A stretch of DNA of 64,000 nt, taken from Ulva prolifera (taxonomy: Eukaryota; Chlorophyta; Ulvophyceae; Ulvales; Ulvaceae). Where the stretch lies: positions 1,495,713 to 1,559,712 of the forward strand of contig CM041201.1 in assembly GCA_023078555.1 (NCBI GenBank), in the 5' to 3' direction. Positions 2,903 through 60,131 of the stretch are shown here, piece after piece (within the stretch, counting starts at the first letter, position 1; the number at the start of each line of letters is the position of its first letter). Both the position numbers and the translations under genes were made by a program. Under the pieces are notes generated by a model. That model was not told where the DNA came from. It searched no databases and was given only the letters and a program-made list of their open reading frames with translations.

Positions 2903-10888
<7,986 letters not shown>

Positions 10889-27998: not shown

Positions 27999-28524
27999 GT
28001 ATCGTCCGGACCAGGTGCTGGCCATCATGTGCGTGGGAGGAGGGGAGGGGTGTCACACCAGAAGCGCGATCCACGTGCGCTGGCGCCGGCGCAGCATGCC
28101 CGACTCTGTGTTGTTCAAAGACTTGACAACTCTCTTGCCGACTCACAAGCGCCTCAGCGCTGTTGGGATGCAGGCTGACCTCGGGATAGGCGCTCCACAA
28201 CGGCGCTCGAATTCGTGCCGCGTGGCCCGGCGAGGCAGGTGACCTTCACAAACCCTGCGCCTATTCGCGCGTCACTCTGGCATGGCTAAGCTGAACCGTT
28301 GATGGTGCACCCAACAGCCACGGACCTGCGGCATTCTGCCTGCTGCCTTCTGGCTCGGCCTGCTCTGCCCGGCGCGCTGCAGCCACAGGCACCCCCCCCC
28401 CTCCCCCATGCACACGCGCTCCTCCGTAGTGGCTGAATGCGGCCCGTCACGCCTGTGCCTGTGGGGTCTGGGGCCGGTTTTTTGTACGCCGTGTGATCAG
28501 GCTGGCACGTTTGGCACTGAGGAC

Positions 28525-28662
28525 ACACGCACGCCGCCAGGGACGTGTGGTGGCGTGCTCAAGCCACACACGCGCGCCGTCAGGGACGTGTGGTGGCGTG
28601 CTCAAGCCACACACGCACGCCGCCAGGGACGTGTGGTGGCGTGCTCAAGCCACACACGTGCG
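28525..28662 (+). repeat. Three-copy 43-bp tandem repeat
   Basis: Units start at 28540, 28583 and 28626 with GGGACGTGTGGTGGCGTGCT and a CACACACGC(A/G)CGCCG(C/T)CA spacer. A 43-bp period cycles through all three frames, so it is unlikely to encode a protein repeat. Confidence 0.9.
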
Positions 28663-47281: not shown

Positions 47282-50200
47282 TTAGGCACTGAGCAACTTG
47301 CTCGGGTCAAGAATGGAAAGTGTGGCTCCCTGATCAGCAAAGAGGCTATCACAGCCATGCATAATTCCAACTCTCCCACCAGAATACATCCCTTGTGCCT
47401 GTGCGCCAGCGAGCACAAACTTCACACTGTCCATCAGCGACTCCTTGCTGGACTTGAGGCAGCAGCCCCACATGCCAAAGTACAGATTCGCAGCCTGAGC
47501 CACATCCTTGCTCGTGGTCGCAACAAAATGTGGCACAGGCGGCCTGTACTTTGTGCAGATCTGCGCAGGGCTGCCGTTTGCTGTGAATGTAATCACTGCT
47601 GTCACATCAGCATCCAGGGCCATCCGTGCGAGGCAGTGGCTTGATGCCTCCAGTGATGTGAAGGGCTTGGAGGAGAAGTCACGGGTGAATGAGTGCAGAG
47701 CGTAGTAGTGTGTAGCCTCTTCTGCATTAGTGATGATGGACGCCATGGTCTGCACCGAGTCGATGGGGAAACTGCCGATCGCCGTCTCCTCTCCCAGCAC
47801 CACCGCATCAGCAGACTCAAACACCGCGGCGGCCACATCCAGCATTTCAGCGCGGGTCGGCCGAGGGTTGACGACCATGGAACGGAGCATGTGCCGCATG
47901 ACGATAGACACCTGAACATCAGCCCGGCGCTTGTTGCCCTTGCCATGCTAGAGCCATGCATGGTGCACGTCGCACCTCGTGCAGGTGCCTATGAGAATTT
48001 TGCAACAAGTCATGGCTGCGCAACGTTGCCTTGCTTCACGAGCAGCACCAGCGCATGCAATTGACGGGTCGACCAGAGATAAGTGAGTGCACATGCACTT
48101 GATTGACTGAGTGTGGGCACGGCGAGCCATGACTTGCCTCGACCTGCCTGCCCCCAAGGTCCATCACGTGTATACTGCCAGTCAGTGAGCGGGGGCTGAC
48201 CTTGCCGCGGATGTTACACTTGGTGACGCAGAGGTTCTGCGCAAGCGCCACGGTCTCCGGAGACAGCTCGAGCCCGAGAGTGCCTCGGGCGACGATGATC
48301 CCGTCCGAGGCATCCAGCACCTTCTCCAGGTTCCGCAAGCCATCAGCGTCCTCCACCTTTGCGATGATCCTGCACGTGCCGGCCTCACCCGGTGTTCACC
48401 CATGAACCCCCGTGCTCCTCCGGCCAGGCTCACAGCTGAGGGGTCAGCTGCAGTCCGCTGCATGTAGACACGACTCGAGGTGCCCACCAATGGGTTGAGG
48501 ACGGATGAAAAGCTACCCCCTCCGTTTCAGGAGGTCGTGCGTTCGATTCTGCGTGCGCTTTGGGGAATCGAAACGGCCGTACGTGACCACCTCGCTTAGC
48601 ACAGGAGGAGGCCCTGTGAGCTGCGTACGGTCGTCTGAGGGGGTTTTCCAGGTGGTTTACCCCTTCGGCATATGTGGTCCCGTTAATTCGGAGTTGTCAA
48701 TCTCCAATAGGATACGGCTCAGTAAATTCAGATTTACTTTACTTTACCAGCTTCAGAACAGCCCTATATAGCGGTAGGATATCCTACCCATATCCCACGT
48801 GGTAGTGCTGTGGCTGTGAGTGCGCACAGTCCAGCCCCTCTAGTCTGTTGCCAGTCCAAAATTGATTGATCAATTAATGTATGTCGTGGATATCTTGGAC
48901 CGGAATTAGCCGGAGCTTTGGGCAGCAGGCAGCACCCTTTCCAGTGCTAGACAATGGTGAAGCGGACCTGACGAAGCTTCCCCCGTTGTTGTCAAGTATG
49001 TCCCGCAGCTCGGCCACGTCCTCCTCGGTGCGCGTGAAGGGCGCCGCCACAAAGTTGATGCCCCGCGCAGTCGCCCACTTGAGGTCCTGGCTGTCCTGGG
49101 CGGTCAGGAAGGGCGTGCGGACCTTCTGGCCGCGGATGGAGACCTTGGAATGCTCGTGCAGCGTGCAGTCGGCGAGCACTGTGCCCGCCACCTCCGTGGC
49201 GGACACAATCTCGTCCACTTTCACCGCCACCGCCCCGTCGCTCATGCTCACCTGCATCGCCCCAATGGTGGTTCTTGACTCAGACCTGGTAAGAGCAGAC
49301 CAGATGGTGTTCCTGATCGATCGGCTCTGATCCACATGTCTGCTCCAAGCGCACACTAACGTGTGAACATTCCTTGGCTGCTAGTAGGTGCGAGGCGGCA
49401 GAGTGATCCTGTGCTCGCGTGTGTCCATGCTGTGCTGGATGCCGAGCCATGTTCAAATGAGGTATTCTGGCAGGTCGGGCACCATCCCGCCGACCGCAGC
49501 TGGATAGACCGGCGCCAGTCCACCCAACACTAGTGTATACCCATATGACTCGCACCAGGCAGCACCACAGATGGAGCTGCTTCAGGCCCATCGAGCAGCC
49601 TCTGATGCAAAGGGTGGCCGTCCCCACGTAGCGCTCACTCCATCCAGTGCGGTGGACCTGAGGTGGTCCCCACAGGTGCAACAGGCACTAAGCGCCAGCC
49701 ATGCACCTGTTGTCGTGCATTGCACCCTGAGTCGCGCCCGCTGGGCCGGACCATTCCAATACAGGCAGGAGCACAAGCATCATCCAGCACAGGCAGTACA
49801 TCCCGCCATCGTCCAGGTTCGAGAAGACACAAATCTGCGCACATGCATGAGTGTTCCAAGTGCACCCCCACCACCGTATCCCCCTGTCAGTCACGACCCT
49901 TCCTGAGTCGTCTGTATGCATCCAAAAGGTCCGCATGTCCTCTTCCCTCGGGAGCCCTGTGCGTACGCTCCCAGCCAGCCAACTACATCGGGTCCCCTAT
50001 CATTATCCACCATGACATCCCCCCATCAGCCGGCCGCAGCATGTTTGAATGAATACAATCGAAAGAGGCGCACCACCGCGCCCAGCGGCGTGATCTCGCC
50101 GAGCTTCTCGTACTGGATCCCAATCCGCGCCCCCGTGTCGTCCGCCCAGCCGACAAACTCCAGCGGGTCGCTCGCCGCGGTGCCGTACAGGTTCACCCGC

Positions 50201-53200
50201 AGCCCCGCGCGCAGCTCGACGCGCTTCACCGGCGTGCCGGCGGCCCTGTCCATGAGGTACGACGCGCGCAGCGTGCTGCCGCGCAGCTCGCACAGCACGC
50301 ACGGCAGCGCGCCGGCGTCGGCGGCGGCCTCGCGGTACGCGGAGAGCATGGCCTCGGCCTGGGCGGTGGTGGAGTGCGAGAGGTTGATGCGGAGCACGTC
50401 CATGCCGGCGCGGATGAGCTGGCGCAGCGTGTCGCGGTTCGTCGACGGTACCGCGGTGCAGATGATCTTGGTCTTGCGGCGCACCTGTACCCCGGGTGCC
50501 GTCGATGCACAGACGCGGTGCGACACCGCATAGCATGAGGGCATCCCTGCGAACCTGTGCGCTCAGTGTCCAGCCCTACCTTATAGCATGGCTGAACATG
50601 GCGAATTCTGCAAGATAGCATGTCATGTATGCCCTCTAATCGTCTCGCCAAGCACAGTGACGCCACGCACAATCCACGGCGCACCTTGCTCTCATGCATC
50701 ACGAGCGACAGGTCCATCCGCGTGGCGCGCAGCGATACCGTCTTGGCTACAAACGCGAGGTCCACCGCGCCGCCGGCGAGGTTCGGCGCGAGGCTGCCAA
50801 GCTTCTCAAACTGCAGCCGGCCCGGCGCGACCGTCACAAAGAGCTCGCGCTCCGCGCCGTGGCCGACCCCGGACTGCGTCGCCGCCGTCGACGCGAGAAC
50901 AACGACCTCCTTGCCCGGCACGCACAGCCCGGCCTCCACGCCATGCTTCAGCGAGCGCCGCAGCGTGCCGAGCAGCGCGGCGCGGTCGCGCATCGGCTCG
51001 GGGAGGAGCAGCGCGTGGCACGCGAATAGCGCGCTGCAGCGGCACGCGAGCGCGCCGTTCGACGTCACGACGAGCAGCGGCACGCACGGCCGGTACTTCG
51101 CGGCGAGGCGCGCCATCTTCCCGCTCTCGGAGAACACGATCGCCATGCCGGGCTTCACGTCCACCGCGGCCTTCGCGAGCGCGGACACCGACGCCTCGAC
51201 GGTGCCAACCGGCTTTGGCGTGAACTCCCGCACGAAGTTGTACGCCTGGTTGTGGTTCGAGCCGATCTCGGCGTGCTGCTGGATGGAGGCCATGAGGGAG
51301 ACGGCGAGGGCGGGGTGGGCGCCATTGGCGGTCTCGCCGGAGAGCATGCATGCGTCGGCGCCGTCCCAGACGGCGTTGGCGATGTCGGAGATCTCGGCGC
51401 GCGTCGGGTGCGGCGAGTCGATCATGCTCTCCATCATCTGCGTCGCGCAGATGACGAAACGCCCCGCAATCTGCATGCGCCGGCAGCAGTGCATGAGCCT
51501 GTGTATGATCTGGTGCGTGTGGGTAGCCACAGATTTGGGACAGCATCAGCCGTGCACAGAGTAAGGTGAGAAAACCGCAATGGAGAAACACTGCTTTGGA
51601 AAATGTACTGCTCTGGTGGTGCAGACGGCGGAGGTACGGGCGCACATTGGCCTTGGCGATCATCATCTTCTGTGCCAGGGGAACCTTCTGCACCGGAATC
51701 TCCATACCCAGGTCGCCTCGGGCAACCATGATACCTGCACCACAGAGATGCATCAGCGGATTCAACATTATGCAGGCACTGCACTGGGCACATCCTCGTA
51801 ACACGCCAGGCAACAGCCATACGACACACGGAAGTGGGCAAAGCCACAACCGCAGGTATCATCAAGAGGGCGAGGCAAATGGAGCGCGCCAAAGATAGAA
51901 CAAGGTTGCCAGGATTAGGAGAACATGAGCAAGTGGCACACAAACGGACACAAAACAAAAAAACCGCAAAGCCCACCATCTGTGACTTCCAGGATCTCGT
52001 CGTAGTTCTGCAGCCCCTCCTGGTTCTCGATCTTCGAGATGATCCCGATCTCCTCCCCGCCCGCCTCGTCCAGCACGCGCCGAATGAACAGCACATCCTC
52101 CTTGCTCTGCACGAACGACGCCGCCACAAAATCAACCCTGTTCTTGCACGCAAACTCCTGCAAGTCCGCCACGTCCTTCTCCATCAGCACCGGCAGGTCC
52201 ACCTTCGCCCCCGGCAGGTTGCAGTTCTTCCGCTCCCCGAGCGCTTTCGAGTTCTGCACGACGCCCTTGACCTCCGTCTCGCTCACAACCTCCGTCACCT
52301 CGATCGAGATCGTGCCGTCTGCAAGCAGAATTCTCCCGCCCGGCACCACCGTCTGGGCGAGCTGCGCATATGACAGACCGATGCGGGTCTCCTCCGCAGT
52401 TTTGTAGCCCTCGAAGGTCGTGTACGCGTCTCCGACGGCCTCGATGGTGATGCTCTGGCCGGCCTCGAGGTCGATGGGCGTGCCGCCGCGGAGCATCGCG
52501 GTGCGGATCTCGGGGCCTTTGGTGTCGAGCAGGCACGCGGCGTGCGAGTTGCGGCTCGCGGCGGCCGCGCGGAAGCGCTGGAGGACCTCCAGGTGGGAGT
52601 CATGGCTGCCGTGGCTGAAGTTCAACCTGCGCGTGCCTCTCCGATGGTGTATACAATGCCATGCAGCAAACGCCTGATGTTCCGCCTGGGGGGGGCAGCC
52701 AGGGGTTGTGCCACAAGGAACAAGGCGAGGAGGCAGGTAGTGCCGCGGAAACAGCGAGCAGCAGAGGAACCATTCGATCAGCACAGTACACCCACGCCAC
52801 AATCAGCATCACATGTGCCCTGCGACACCGGCACCACAGGAAACAGGATACATACACAGGATGGGCTGATGGGGATGCCGAGCCGCAAGTGCGCGCAGGT
52901 ATGGAAGCAGCACGCTACGGCACAACATGTGCCCGCAGCCGATCGCACGGTGAGGTGTGGACGAGGTGTGGACGAGGCACACACCTCGCGACATTCATGC
53001 CTGCGTCCAGGAGCTTGCCGAGCATCTCCTCCGAGTCGCACTGCGGGCCGAGCGTGCAGATGATCTTGCACTTGCGGACGGCGTGCTTGTACTTGTCCTG
53101 GTCCAGGATCGTGTCCAGCCCGATCTTCGTGGAGCGGTACATGATGGAGGCGCCTCCAGTGAGGCCCTGCATGCATGCGCCCTTGTAAAGCAGTCTATCG

Positions 53201-56200
53201 GGAACAAGTGATACATTTGCGAGGGGAGTGGCGCTGTCGTCGCAATGCCAGGGCAGACGATGCTGCCTCACGGGAACCAGTGTCTAGTGAGATCGTTCTG
53301 CCATGCATGCATTTTCTGTGCATGCATGCACGTCTGGTGCATCCGATCACAACCACTAAGAAAAGTTTATACCATCGTGACGCTCCAGCACACTGCGCAA
53401 GCAGCTCTGGCCCGCCCACAACCCCAACGCACCAGACGACCAGGATGCTGGACCGAGCGCTGCCCGTCTCGCTGCCTCCGCCGCAACACATCACACAAAA
53501 CTGTAGACATACATGGCTACAGGCGGCATACCCGGAACGGCTGCTCCACAGCGGGCCCGTTGCCGACGATGTGTGCACGCACAGCGAGCCGCTGGTCGTC
53601 GAGCGCGTTGCCGAGCTCCAGCGAGCGCCGGCAGACGACGATGACCTGGTCGCCGGGCTGCAGGCTGGCGGCGCCGCTGCGGTTGATGTGCTCCACAAGC
53701 TCCTCCGTCACCTCGCGAATCTGCACGCACGGACAGATGCAACAGGTGATTGCTCAATTTGCCGTCATGTCGGCAAACACTGTGACAACGAATCGGCGCC
53801 GACTTCTAAACCCAACCAACCCAAGCCCTTGGCTGCGTTCTATATAGTCGGAGGGACAGCTTGCCATGGTGTGTGCTCTACAATTCTATGTAAAGCCGGC
53901 TCTGTGAATCTGCGACCCATTGATCCATGCCCCGCTGGCCGATGTGGTGTCAAGCGACAGAGGCAGCAACGGAACTCGGTGTCACGCGAGACAGTGCAGT
54001 CAGGCAACAGTTTCGTTCACGGCAGGGTGTCGCACCGGCTTGCCCTCAAACGCCATGTGCACCCCGTGCAGCCCAAAGTGCGCCCGGCACGCCACCAGTG
54101 CCGGCCGCTCCTCGGCAGCCACAAACACCGGCACCGGCGGCGAGTACTTCGACAGCGCGACGGCCCCCCGGCCACTGCTCGTAAAGCACAGGATCGCGCG
54201 CGCGCCCATGTCCAGCGCCATTGCGACCGCGCTGCTCGCAACCGCCTCTGCACTCTCCAGCGGCGCCGGTGTCTGCGACCGCACAAAGTCGTACCGCCGC
54301 CGCGCGTCGACGATGTGCTCCGCGTTGCGCGCGATCGCGGCCATCGTGGTCACGGTCGCCGCCGGGAAGGCGCCGTTGGCGGTCTCGCCAGAGAGCATGA
54401 CGGCGTCAGCGCCGTCGATGACGGCGTTCGCGACGTCGGTGAGCTCGGCGCGCGTCGGGCGCGGGTTTTTGCACATCGACTCGAGCATCTGGGTCGCACA
54501 GATGACGAACTTGTTCGCGAGGTTGCACTTCGTCGCGAGCAGCTTCTGCGCGTGCGACACCTTGCTCGACGCGATCTCCATGCCCAGGTCGCCTGCAGAA
54601 GCTGATTACGCCATGGACCCATTTTGTTACTCATGGAGAGAGAGTCAAGTGCCCAAGAGACCATCAGATGTGAACATGATCGAATACTGCACAAATGGGG
54701 CGTGAGATGTACGGTGTCATAGAAATTCTGTTAAGAAAGGATAGCTATTACGCCTCTGGACGTGTGGCAGCCTGCTGGCGATGGAAACAAGTCATTCACG
54801 CCATGACCCCACACAGCTCTCGGTGTTGGGGGACAACCTGCTTGCTGCCACAAAAGTGCTGGTGAGTGAAGCACGGCGCTTTGTGGGCGAGTGCAGCGGC
54901 TGTTGGGGCACAGACAGGCGCCACGCCTCTGCAGTGGCGTCCAGGCACCCACGGCAGACGACGGGGGGGAGGGGGCACGCCTCGAGCGATCATGACGCCG
55001 TCAGTCTCCCGCAGGATCTCGGCAAAGTTGTTGAGGCCCTCCTGGTTCTCGATCTTGGAGATGATCTTGATGTCAAAGCCGCCGCCCTCGTCGAGCACCG
55101 AGCGGATGAAGCGCACGTCCGCGGCGCTCTGCACAAACGACGCTGCGACAAAGTCCATGCTGTGCTTGCACGCGAAGTCCTTGAGGTCGTGGATGTCCTT
55201 CTGTGTCAGCACTGGCAGGTCGACTTTAATACCTGGATGGGGCGAACCGGATCAGATCAAGCGGTGTACAGATGCGGTGAACAGCAGGCGAGCATCACTA
55301 ATTGCTAGCACAGGCGGACAAGGCCTCTGGAGGTGCCCCAAGGCATGCGATGCCAATGCCGTGGTGCATGCGCTCTTTATAATTACTGATGCATAACAGT
55401 GCTGGATTTTGTGCGGATCTCACACAGCACCAAGCTGCCTCATCTCCGTCCTACACACGGAAAACGGCCGATACCGGGGCGGGGATCAATACCTGGAAGG
55501 TTGCAGTTCTTCCGTTGGCCGAGCGAGCAGGACCCCATGACCTGGCCCAGGATCTCCGTTGGGGACAGGATCTTCTGCACGGTGATCGCGATGGAGCCGT
55601 CTGCCAGCAGGATGCGATCCCCGGGGGAGACGGAGGAGCACAGCTTGGCGTACGACAGCCCGATGCGGGTCTCCTTGGCATCTTTGTAGCCCTCAAACGT
55701 GGTGTAGTCGTCGCCCACGGCCTCGACGATGACGTCTTGATCCTTCACGAGCTCGATGTTCTCACCGTTTCGCAGCATGGCCGTCCGGATCTCGGGGCCC
55801 TTGGTGTCCAGCAGGGTGCCCCAGATCGGGCCGGACTTGACCCCCGCCTTCTCCTTCAACTCACTAGCTTTCGCAGTACAGACCTTCCTGAAGCGCTGGA
55901 GAACCTCCAGGTGCCCTGCACAGGTCCCGAATCCGCTTCAACCGTCATGGCCCAAAATGCACTGACCAACGCCGAGGGCAGAGTCCGTGAAGCGCAGTGC
56001 CACGGTATATGGAAGCACATGGCCCAGGCTTGACATGCTGCGGCCAGGCAGCCGGCACTGTTTCCAAAGATCAGCGCCACTTAATACAGCAGCTTTGCGA
56101 CTCGGAGCAGTCTCCAGCACCAACGTGACTGTACACCAAGCCACACAGCCATGACTGTACGCCATTCTCCTCCCTCAGCCCACAACGAACACCACAGATG

Positions 56201-59200
56201 CGAAGAGCCCGCACCAGCGTGGTCGCCGTGGCTGAAGTTGAAGCGGACGACGTCGCAGCCCGCGTCCAGCAGCGCCGCGAGCCCCTGTTCGCTCCAGCAC
56301 GCCGGCCCGAGCGTGCATATGACGCGCGTCGCGCGCGGGTGCTGCACCGGCGCCGTCACGAGGCCCAGGCTCGTGTTCGTCGCGCGCAGCGACCGCGTGC
56401 CCCGCGCCGCCAGCGGCGTCCCCGACGGCGTCGTCAGCGCGACCCCGCTCGACTTGAGGTCCTTCGCGAGGCCGCGCTTGCTGATCTTCTCGTGCGCGAT
56501 GACCGGGTCGGCGTCGGCGCTGCCGCCGGCGCGGCCGGTGACCATGATGACGCGGACCGCGGTGCTCTTGGCGTCGGAGATCGCCTCGAAGCGCTTGAGC
56601 GCGAGGCGGGCGAGCTCCTGGCTCGGGATGTCCATCGAGTCGAGCTTGATGCCGGCCATGCCAAAGTAGGCGTTCGCCTGCATAGAGGTGGCACACTGAC
56701 ACCTCGGGGCTGGTGCACGCGTCATGCATTGGCGCTCTCCTCCGCAGGTGTGGTCAAGTCTGGTGAAGACGCACAGCTCAGGGAGACTCTATAGCATGCA
56801 ATCGGCCGAAGTAGTCCCGGATGAAAAAATAAAATGCTGCACATTTGGCACAACACTGCGTTTGTCCGGCTGTAACACAGACACACCGGATCTCGGCAAC
56901 ATGCCGCGCCCTGCCAAACACATGCCTCCGCCCGTCCCGGGTCCTGTACAACACGATGGACGTTCCTGCCCACTCTCGGCCTCGCTCCATATGTGCAAGT
57001 CAGTTGCATCTGAACGGTACATGCGCTTGTGTGCACATGCGCGTCACAGTAAACTGCCATAACAGCCACTCACAAGCACACGACTCAGTCGACCGCACCG
57101 CACCTGCCTGACCGTCTGTGCATTCGTCGAGGCAGTGAACACCATCACCGGCGGGCGGTACTTCGCGATGAGCCGCGCCGGCGCGCCCGACTCCGACAGG
57201 CACACGATGCAGGCAGCGTTGCGCAGCCGCTTCCGGCGCGCGTGCGGCGACGTGTCCTCGTTGTACAGCACCGCCATCGCCGCGGCGGAGCACATGAGGG
57301 CCTCGAGGTCGCCGAGCGGCGCCGTCATGCGGCGCGTCGCCCAGTAGCGGATGAAGTTGAACTGCTTGTAATAGTCCACGCCGACCTGCAGACCGCGACC
57401 GCGGCAGTCGGGTGCTGCAGCACTGCCGGCACGTGCAGCTGCCATGCAGGGGGCATGCATGTATGGATCCTAGCCAAGTGGACAATGGCAGCTCCGGCGC
57501 CCTTGGATGAATCCTGGGCAGGGTCCAGGAGACATCATGCCGACAGTGCATGTTTGTCTACAGTGCCTGTTTCAGCACGATGGCCAGCTGCTGTGAGGCA
57601 GAAGTGTGTTCAGCGAGATGCAAAAGCATGCACGTTTCACGTGCAAAGCGGCCTGTAGGCTTGCAGCTGAGCTGTTCCGTGCTGTGCTGAATCCGGCATC
57701 TGGTGCCTGACGCAGCAGCGGGAGGGAGACGTCAGCATGTGCCCTGCTACTCCATCAGTACTTGTGTGCGCTTTACTGCCCGACATATCTCGAGACGTCC
57801 AGCACAGCAGGTTGTTGTGGCAGCCCTGCGGGAGGCACAGGGCATGGATCTGGGCCAGCTGCACACACCTCAGCGTTGCCGACGATATCAGCCATGTGCT
57901 GCACAGCCTCCGCAGGGAACTTGCCGTTGGCTGTCTCGCCGCTGAGCATCACAGCATCCACTCCATCGTAGACGGCATTCGCAGTGTCTGTCATCTCAGC
58001 TCGAGTCGGGCGCATGGAGTCAATCATACTCTCCAGCATCTGTGTCGCACAGACCACCATCTTGCCTGCGATGTTGCACTTCGTGATGAGCATCTTCTGT
58101 GCGAGGGGCACCTTCTCCGGCGGGATCTCCATCCCTGTATGGACGCATCCTTCGATGAGCAATGAGTCAGTTGCCAATGACTGTTGCCTGCAAGTACTTG
58201 TCTGGTGGTATGTATGCATAATCACATACCCCATACATGGGATGATGAGCACTTTGGACACCAGAACCAATATTGAGTGGTCCCTGAAGTGGTCATTGCG
58301 TATCCCGATTGACTGTTGCACGCAAGGTTCCCACTGGACGGGCGCGGTTAGTAGAAGCACTGTTGTGTGCAGTGCGCCATGCAAGCTGCGACACGCACCA
58401 AGGTCTCCTCGTGCCACCATGACGCCATCTGTTGCCTCCAGGATGCCTGCACACGGGCAAGGCGTCTGAATGCGGCCTGCTGACCAGGAGCAAACACAGG
58501 CTACACCTTCGGAATGTATGAACCAGCTCTCTACAGGAATACACTGTTCACCATGTTCAGCACAGTGCTGTAGGTGGCAGACAAGCAGTGGTCAGGTCGA
58601 AGCTGGTCCACGGCACACCATCAAAATTCTCCAGGCCAGCCATATTCTCAATTTTCGAGATGATTTTGATGTCCTGACCACCAGCGTCAGCGAGCACCTT
58701 ACGGATGAAGAGCACATCAGCTTTGCTCTGCACAAATGACGCAGCAACAAAGTCCACCTTGTGCTTGCAGGCGAAGTTTTGTAGGTCATCAATGTCCTGC
58801 AGATGTTGCACAAGACGTCCCAGAGGATGGAAGGTCAGGTGCACCAAGGGAAACGGCTTCACATGACAGCCTGAGGCACAGTACAAGGTAGTGTATCTTC
58901 CAGGGCCGTTCCAGTGTCTCGAGCAACATGTTCAACATGGTCAATTCAGAGAGGAGAGATGCATGCCTTGTCCATCAGGACAGGAAGCTCAACTTTCACG
59001 CCAGGCAGGTTGCAGTTCTTCCTTTGTCCCAGAGCCTTGCTGTTGAGGACCTTTCCTCGCAGCTCCGTGGCACTGATGATCTCCACAACCTCGATTGAGA
59101 TCGTTCCGTCTGCCAAGAGAATACGATTTCCTGGGACCACTGATTGGCAGAGCTTGTCATAAGACAGCCCAATGCGAGTTTCCTCTGCTGTTTTGTGGCC

Positions 59201-60131
59201 CTCAAATGATGTGTACCTATCTCCTACAGCCTCAACAATGATCTCCTGATCTTGCTCCAGCTGAATGTCGTTTCCATCCTGAAGCATCGCAGTGCGGATT
59301 TCTGGCCCTTTCGTGTCCAGCAGGACCGCACGAAGTTTGGTTTTGGCCTCACAAACGCTCCTGCAATGCGGAAGACTTTTGTTGAAGCACCTGCTGTAAA
59401 CTTGTGGTGGCACTGACACAACGCAATGTCTATTCACTGGGGCGCTTGACAAAGCAGTCACCATCCTGACGAGTCAATTATCAAGGACCAAGGAGACTGA
59501 CCTGAACAGAGCGAGCATTTCCAAATGGCTCTCATGTGAGCCGTGTGAGAAGTTGAGGCGTGCGACATTGAGGCCGGCATCTAGCAAAGTCCCCAAGGTC
59601 TCTTTGTTGCCGCATGCAGGACCGAGAGTACAAATAACCTTAGTCTTCCTCGTCATAGTGGAGTCGTCGACGATGTCTTGAAGCTGAATAAGGGTAGCCC
59701 TCTCCGAGACAGTGTAGTCGTTTTGGGCAGGGCTCAGGGCGGCATCTTCGGAGTTCGCATGAGTCTGTGCTGATTCAGGTTCATACTCGGGGTGCCACTC
59801 AAGCAGCAGACGAGCTTTGACTTTCGCAAGGCTGTACTCTTCCAGGGACTTGTGGTCTGTCGCTGCCTCTCGCACGGAGGTTGCCATGGCAGCCAAGTAC
59901 TGCCTGTTTTCAGGAGCATCCCCATTCTCAGACTCGGAATCCCTGCAGAAATACTACCTCTAGCACATCCAATACTGATAAAATCGCATGTTTTCTTGAT
60001 CGGCTGCAAGCATACCCTTGTGCCGAAGCTCTAACGCTGCCTGCCTCAGATGGTTTCTTAAAGGCCGACTTTAAGGGTGAGCTGGGTGAGTTCAAACTTT
60101 TCGGGGTCCCGGAAGTAGGGCTAGCATCAAC
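47282..60131 (-). CDS. Pyruvate kinase with four PK domains in one chain
   Basis: Glycolytic enzyme: phosphoenolpyruvate + ADP to pyruvate + ATP. Exons (descending): 60131-60016, 59942-59502, 59360-58967, 58796-58619, 58446-58399, 58134-57869, 57385-57104, 56677-56215, 55915-55493, 55232-54981, 54592-54021, 53720-53532, 53166-52985, 52626-51977, 51734-51646, 51470-50685, 50484-50074, 49251-48968, 48369-48201, 47911-47282. From the ATG at 59887 the frame gives 2217 aa. PK domains start near residues 79, 633, 1182 and 1721. Domains 1-3 carry Rx[33 protein letters not shown] and CATQMxES. Domain 4 has [31 protein letters not shown] and [10 protein letters not shown]. The frame is open upstream of 59887 to 59942 and joins 60131-60016, so the true start may lie further up. 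The donor at 50074 could be 50077. Donors after 58967 and 54981 read GC. Likely cytosolic; no targeting peptide judged. Confidence 0.9.
48490..48748 (+). repeat. SINE-like repeat, longest copy, in a PK intron
   Basis: Lies in the pyruvate kinase intron 48370-48967, opposite to the gene. The part 48573-48748 matches 37605-37790. A GTTCGATTC block at 48541-48549 resembles a tRNA B box, and GGGTTGAGGACGG at about 48492 is a weak A-box candidate, so a tRNA-derived head is possible. It ends in TTTAC units. Confidence 0.65.

Follow-up and report, generated by a model that had tools for sequence, protein, structure and literature searches.

Gene structure and domain content

The window, i.e. the whole stretch of 64,000 nucleotides of Ulva prolifera DNA that was analyzed, contains a gene in which four pyruvate kinase (PK) domains, called D1 to D4 here, follow one another in one open frame (Table 1). 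Splice sites and homology guided the manual reconstruction of the gene model. In the joined exons, frame 0 has a single stop, the terminal TAA at 47282, whereas the two alternative frames have 46 and 55, which rules out a frame that is open by chance. A sequence-only reading of this DNA had proposed 19 exons in consistent phase with about 2217 codons. The consistent phase stands, with its one terminal stop, while the exon number has to be corrected to 20 and the length to 2269 codons when counted from 60131, or to 2212 codons (237.1 kDa) when counted from the ATG at 59887, the first one in exon 2. An in-frame ATG was looked for in exon 1 (60131-60016) and none was found, hence, the true start of the gene may sit in an upstream exon. 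The N-terminal 57 residues, the start of which is itself unsure, are acidic (5 K/R, 11 D/E), from which a location outside the plastid, in the cytosol or the cilium, might be guessed, and the N-terminal 135 residues of the chain gave no match in Pfam.

Among the splice sites of the 19 introns, 17 are of the GT-AG type and two, after exons 3 and 10, of the GC-AG type. The hand model was compared with spliced alignments by segment, for which one bacterial PK and one single-domain paralog, itself a D1-guided prediction, served as queries. The bacterial PK yielded 14 introns and the paralog 15, in both cases with 13 identical to the hand model, and combined they recovered 14 of the 19 introns exactly. 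Introns 1 and 11, which lie beyond the aligned part, were missed, and introns 12 and 16 were unrecoverable because the supplied segments ended there. For intron 2 both queries took different nearby sites, and for intron 17 the bacterial query agrees with the hand model, whereas the paralog took other sites.

All four segments score over the Pfam cut-offs for the PK barrel PF00224 (414.3, 386, 422.8 and 258.5 bits for D1 to D4) as well as for the PK C domain PF02887 (44.6, 52.8, 54 and 43.4 bits). When the whole genome was searched in six frames, blind to the gene model, four barrel-profile starts appeared inside this gene. A canonical PK chain consists of one unit with about 500 residues; here four units stand in one frame. 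Pairwise identity amounts to 51-58% within D1-D3 and to 34-37% between D4 and the others. The open frame and the domain content, like the residue loss and the common origin treated below, can be read from the DNA itself, and one chain with four PK domains is very probably the architecture of this gene.

Table 1. Coordinates of the PK gene and its parts in the window (position 1 is the first letter of the window).
Feature	Position	Strand	Remarks	Basis
Whole PK gene	47282..60131	minus	20 exons, 2269 codons + TAA	exon table and frame test
Most conservative start codon	59885..59887	minus	first ATG of the exon 2 frame	sequence
PK domain 1	56522..59650	minus	barrel and C domain, catalytic residues intact	Pfam limits on exons; residues
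Exon 8	56215..56677	minus	D1 end, linker and D2 start, no splice inside	exon table
PK domain 2	53628..56335	minus	catalytic residues intact	Pfam limits on exons; residues
Intron 12	53167..53531	minus	D2-D3 joint wholly splice-dependent	splice-site ranking
PK domain 3	50868..53076	minus	catalytic residues intact	Pfam limits on exons; residues
Exon 16	50685..51470	minus	D3 barrel end, D3 C domain, linker and D4 N-terminal motif (50729-50697), uninterrupted	exon table
Intron 16	50485..50684	minus	200 bases, within the D4 N-terminal segment	exon table
PK domain 4	47354..50478	minus	pseudo-domain by its residues, with the fold retained and 7 of the 15 catalytic positions altered	Pfam limits on exons; residues

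Some further features of the window were recorded. Intron 18 of the PK gene contains a dispersed repeat (48487-48747) with a length of about 260 bases, which is found at no fewer than 39 other places of the genome over about 260 bases with 96-98% identity (40 of 1905 first-look candidates were scored) and looks tRNA-derived and SINE-like. ARAGORN and Rfam reported nothing on the window. A tandem repeat with a period of 43, 3.2 copies and 95% matches occupies 28523-28658, and an open frame of 365 codons on the plus strand (7354-8451) matches the helicase-associated HA2_N domain with 40.5 bits.

Joints between the domains

The claim of the sequence-only reading that the exon 56677-56215 contains the end of the first and the start of the second domain without any splice is borne out by the exon table. 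At the other end of the gene, the D4 barrel proper begins in exon 17, and exon 16 carries the N-terminal motif of D4. This motif ([43 protein letters not shown]) precedes each of the four domains. A pattern for it, which was fitted after the four copies had been seen, matches four times in the protein, compared with a mean of 0.02 and a largest value of 1 in 1000 shuffles. The spacing from the motif to ICT is 22 residues in D1 and D2, 25 in D3 and 22 in D4, where it is counted across the splice of exons 16 and 17; this splice gives D4 the same spacing as D1 and D2, in which the intron is absent. The D4 motif within the exon of the D3 C domain and the restored spacing argue that D3 and D4 are joined, on the basis of an 11-residue motif and not of a domain piece. 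Against this joint it has to be considered that D4 has an in-frame ATG at 50544 with an open frame from intron 16 into exon 17; on the other hand, D3 read through intron 16 meets no stop for about 150 codons. Since exon 16 links the D3 C domain with the D4 motif, the fusion of four domains in one frame appears supported somewhat more strongly than the sequence-only reading could know.

The D2-D3 joint depends on intron 12, the donor of which ranks in the top 6% of the GT sites of the region and the acceptor in the top 1% of the AG sites, according to a matrix that was built from 37 paralog introns together with the 18 remaining introns of the gene and is partly circular because the sites were chosen by hand; across all 19 introns the donor ranks vary between the top 0% and the top 32%. 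The linkers between the compared motifs comprise 68 residues for D1-D2, 64 for D2-D3 and 49 for D3-D4, and the linker obtained by removal of intron 12 is thus similar in length to that of D1-D2. We infer that D2 is spliced to D3. The main rival explanation is that intron 12 parts two adjacent genes, one coding for D1-D2 and the other for D3-D4. Such an arrangement needs no further change, because the D1-D2 fusion and the connection of D3 with the D4 motif each lie inside a single exon, and intron 12 lacks a check from the spliced alignments because it lies outside the supplied segments. Moreover, translation of exon 12 into intron 12 would add four codons (VCRL) and then end at a stop, an in-frame ATG at 53142 could open D3, and the intron contains a TATAAA at 53371-53366. 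On the minus strand of the window TATAAA occurs twice, both times within the PK gene, and on the two strands together five times compared with 3.1 expected, as many being found in 25 of 100 shuffles. However, the 3' end of one gene as well as the promoter and 5' leader of the next would need to fit into the 365 bases of the intron, nine other ATGs separate the TATAAA from the one at 53142, and the splice sites rank as high as stated above and keep the frame. TGTAA and AATAAA are absent from intron 12, which carries little weight for the linker introns, because both are also absent within 400 bases past the real stop. Overall, two adjacent two-domain genes seem unlikely.

Origin of the four domains

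The searched genome comprises 88.9 Mb in 44 contigs and contains at least six other PK-like loci, one of which (L010) encodes an ordinary active-type PK. The paralog proteins are homology-guided spliced predictions, the ends of which may be wrong. A first tree was calculated with 12 of 80 bacterial PKs and all six paralogs, and it came with a warning of long branches that meet; D1-D4 form one clade in it (98/98). The second tree included six of the 80 bacterial PKs, three solved eukaryotic PKs out of 102 matching PDB sequences (partial rows) and three of the six paralogs, the three divergent ones being left out. Here D1-D4 again represent one clade (100/99), which is placed inside the eukaryotic branch, and D1-D3 make up a clade without D4 as well (100/100). 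The branching order among the four domains is unsettled in both trees. Unrelated domains that were brought together are ruled out by the single clade of D1-D4, and its position among eukaryotic PKs points to an internal duplication, which was followed by the loss of the D4 active site. Shared intron positions were searched among D1-D4 and none was found in any pair, hence, the present introns give no date for the duplication.

D3 and D4 served as queries against solved structures, and the nearest chains are 3eoe (387 bits) and 4drs (381 bits) in the case of D3 and 2e28 (245 bits) in the case of D4. In none of the 80 bacterial relatives, the best 80 of at least 583, does a frame have more than one PK match, and a further PK frame was not found near their loci among frames of at least 150 codons in the fetched flanks. 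In both trees the paralogs L012 and L013 group together and attach to bacterial and not to eukaryotic PKs; they are read as plastid-type PKs. The paralogs L011 (contig C5), L014 and L015 (both on contig C4) are PK-like genes with changed catalytic residues and stand on their own branch, at which, however, long branches meet.

Catalytic residues and the fate of domain 4

Fifteen catalytic or metal-binding positions were scored, namely R73, N75, S77, D113, T114, K115, E118, R120, K270, E272, R294, G295, D296, T328 and Q329, numbered after PKM. All 15 are kept in each of D1, D2 and D3, which have the residues of active-type PKs and are predicted to be catalytically competent. In contrast, D4 keeps eight of the 15 and falls outside the active type; its changes are D113 to E, T114 to L, K115 to R, E118 to T, D296 to T, T328 to R and Q329 to H, and the losses include the Asp that serves as Mg ligand and the catalytic Thr. 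The 15 positions are invariant in all 80 bacterial PKs (the best 80 of at least 583 loci encoding relatives), the loci of which were retrieved with the peptides LLDTKGPE or YT[TS]FEG[YH]K, hence, the conservation of D113, T114, K115 and E118 is partly built in, while the other 11 positions are unaffected. The earlier description of four complete copies is therefore correct for the fold, with all four domains matched in Pfam, and does not hold for the chemistry of D4. D4 is probably a pseudoenzyme domain, which has kept the PK fold and would be catalytically dead. With one of its four units dead by its residues, the case is more interesting than had been anticipated.

It might be argued that D4 is a decaying, functionless copy carried as a tail. 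It has the longest terminal branch of the four domains (2.54-3.41 compared with 0.41-0.98 in the two trees), and seven of its 15 catalytic positions are altered. However, its 502 codons stay open from the end of exon 16 to exon 20, both of its Pfam domains score above the cut-off, and, of the 88 positions at which D1-D3 and the 80 bacterial PKs (the best 80 of at least 583) never vary, it retains 55, which makes such a decay quite improbable. The same 88 positions are kept to 86 in L010, 73 in L012, 62 in L013, 52 in L011, 48 in L014 and 44 in L015. In the last three paralogs N75 is changed to D throughout, and D296 is replaced by N in L011, T in L014 and W in L015, so these genes probably encode PK pseudoenzymes. 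In the PTRAE..D segment, the residues R, E and D, two of which form a subunit-interface pair in E. coli PK, are conserved in each of D1-D4, in all six paralogs and in all 80 bacterial PKs (the best 80 of at least 583); since it also occurs in the six paralogs, the segment is no special mark of D4.

Assembly and possible function

The gene would give rise to one polypeptide of about 237 kDa with four PK subunits in tandem. An internal duplication of a eukaryotic cytosolic-type PK probably generated the four domains, among which D1-D3 would have stayed competent, while D4 would have turned into a pseudoenzyme domain with retained fold. PK is a textbook allosteric homotetramer, its activity usually needs oligomer contacts, and heteromeric PKs contain non-catalytic subunits. 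The simplest reading of four tethered folds is that they most likely pack as an intramolecular pseudo-tetramer with three active sites, because PK is generally tetrameric. D4 would then serve assembly or allosteric control, as do the non-catalytic subunits of heteromeric PKs. We infer this folding of the chain and this role of D4, and we hold the whole reading, i.e. a single chain, a pseudo-tetramer and three active sites, with moderate confidence. The single chain as a built-in tetramer, which the sequence-only reading had put forward, has to be corrected in that it would hold three competent sites and one dead site; more tentatively, its composition might be fixed, with the dead unit acting as a dedicated non-catalytic regulatory domain beside three competent sites. 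If true, each molecule would contain a built-in asymmetric allosteric control, which is impossible for homotetrameric PKs.

Alternatively, the domains of the one chain might not close up with each other, being arranged like tethered beads or with several chains combined into larger assemblies, such as a multivalent scaffold by which ATP would be made locally in the cilium. The linkers given above are long, with 49-68 residues from one compared motif to the next, and, judged from the protein sequence, tethered independent domains and packing into a tetramer are equally open. The usual dependence of PK activity on oligomer contacts stands against beads. Regarding the cilium, 22 stretches of the genome match dynein heavy chain, hence, the organism probably builds cilia. 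A Tetrahymena study reports that a PK, as well as enolase, is reduced in cilia of mutants without the C1b projection (PMC8175508), and in Chlamydomonas enolase occurs in the C1b arm together with FAP42, a protein with four guanylate kinase domains, according to a structural study of the central apparatus (PMC9113940). However, the word "pyruvate" is absent from the main text of the latter paper (PMC9113940). By analogy a ciliary role of the four-domain PK is possible, and domains that remain separate or join larger complexes, with or without such a scaffold, appear rather unlikely to us.

The preferred pseudo-tetramer reading has several implications. A four-fold chain with one dead unit would set subunit stoichiometry and order genetically and would let each interface evolve alone. 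What each single subunit contributes to PK allostery, which is hard to address in a homotetramer, would become testable domain by domain in one polypeptide. Furthermore, the gene would add a case in which gene fusion makes an oligomer one chain and catalysis is later lost in one part.

Comparison with known systems

The sequence-only reading pointed to very long PKs in Chlamydomonas and considered that the architecture might be common to green algae, and long algal PKs may well have entries in eukaryotic protein databases. Searches of open-licence papers by title and abstract opening gave no PK with several PK units. Smaller forms are documented in green algae: in one study, Chlamydomonas PYK1 is given with 55233 in the apparent mass column, which corresponds to single-domain size (PMC4977305), and another describes ordinary PK homotetramers with subunits of 56-57 kDa in one green alga (PMC13409958).

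With canonical eukaryotic PK the Ulva prolifera protein shares the order from A/B barrel to C domain, the catalytic residues in D1-D3 and the same eukaryotic branch; it differs in that the canonical enzyme has one unit per chain, whereas here four units are present and the fourth is without the catalytic residues. The plastid PK of plants, a heteromer of alpha and beta subunits, also mixes competent and degenerate PK folds. Its subunits are encoded by separate genes, unlike the one chain here, and the plastid-like L012 and L013 fall into another clade. According to the study mentioned above, the alpha and beta plastid subunits must function together (PMC13409958). Finally, FAP42 of the Chlamydomonas C1b arm provides a parallel in architecture, since an enzyme domain of nucleotide metabolism occurs four times in one chain (PMC9113940). 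In the Ulva prolifera genome three guanylate kinase stretches, with at least two domains, lie on one strand within 2.9 kb (C8:4399824-4402709), and they may belong to one gene in which the guanylate kinase domain is repeated as in FAP42. In contrast to the four-domain PK, FAP42, which is an unrelated enzyme, also carries an adenylate kinase domain (PMC9113940).
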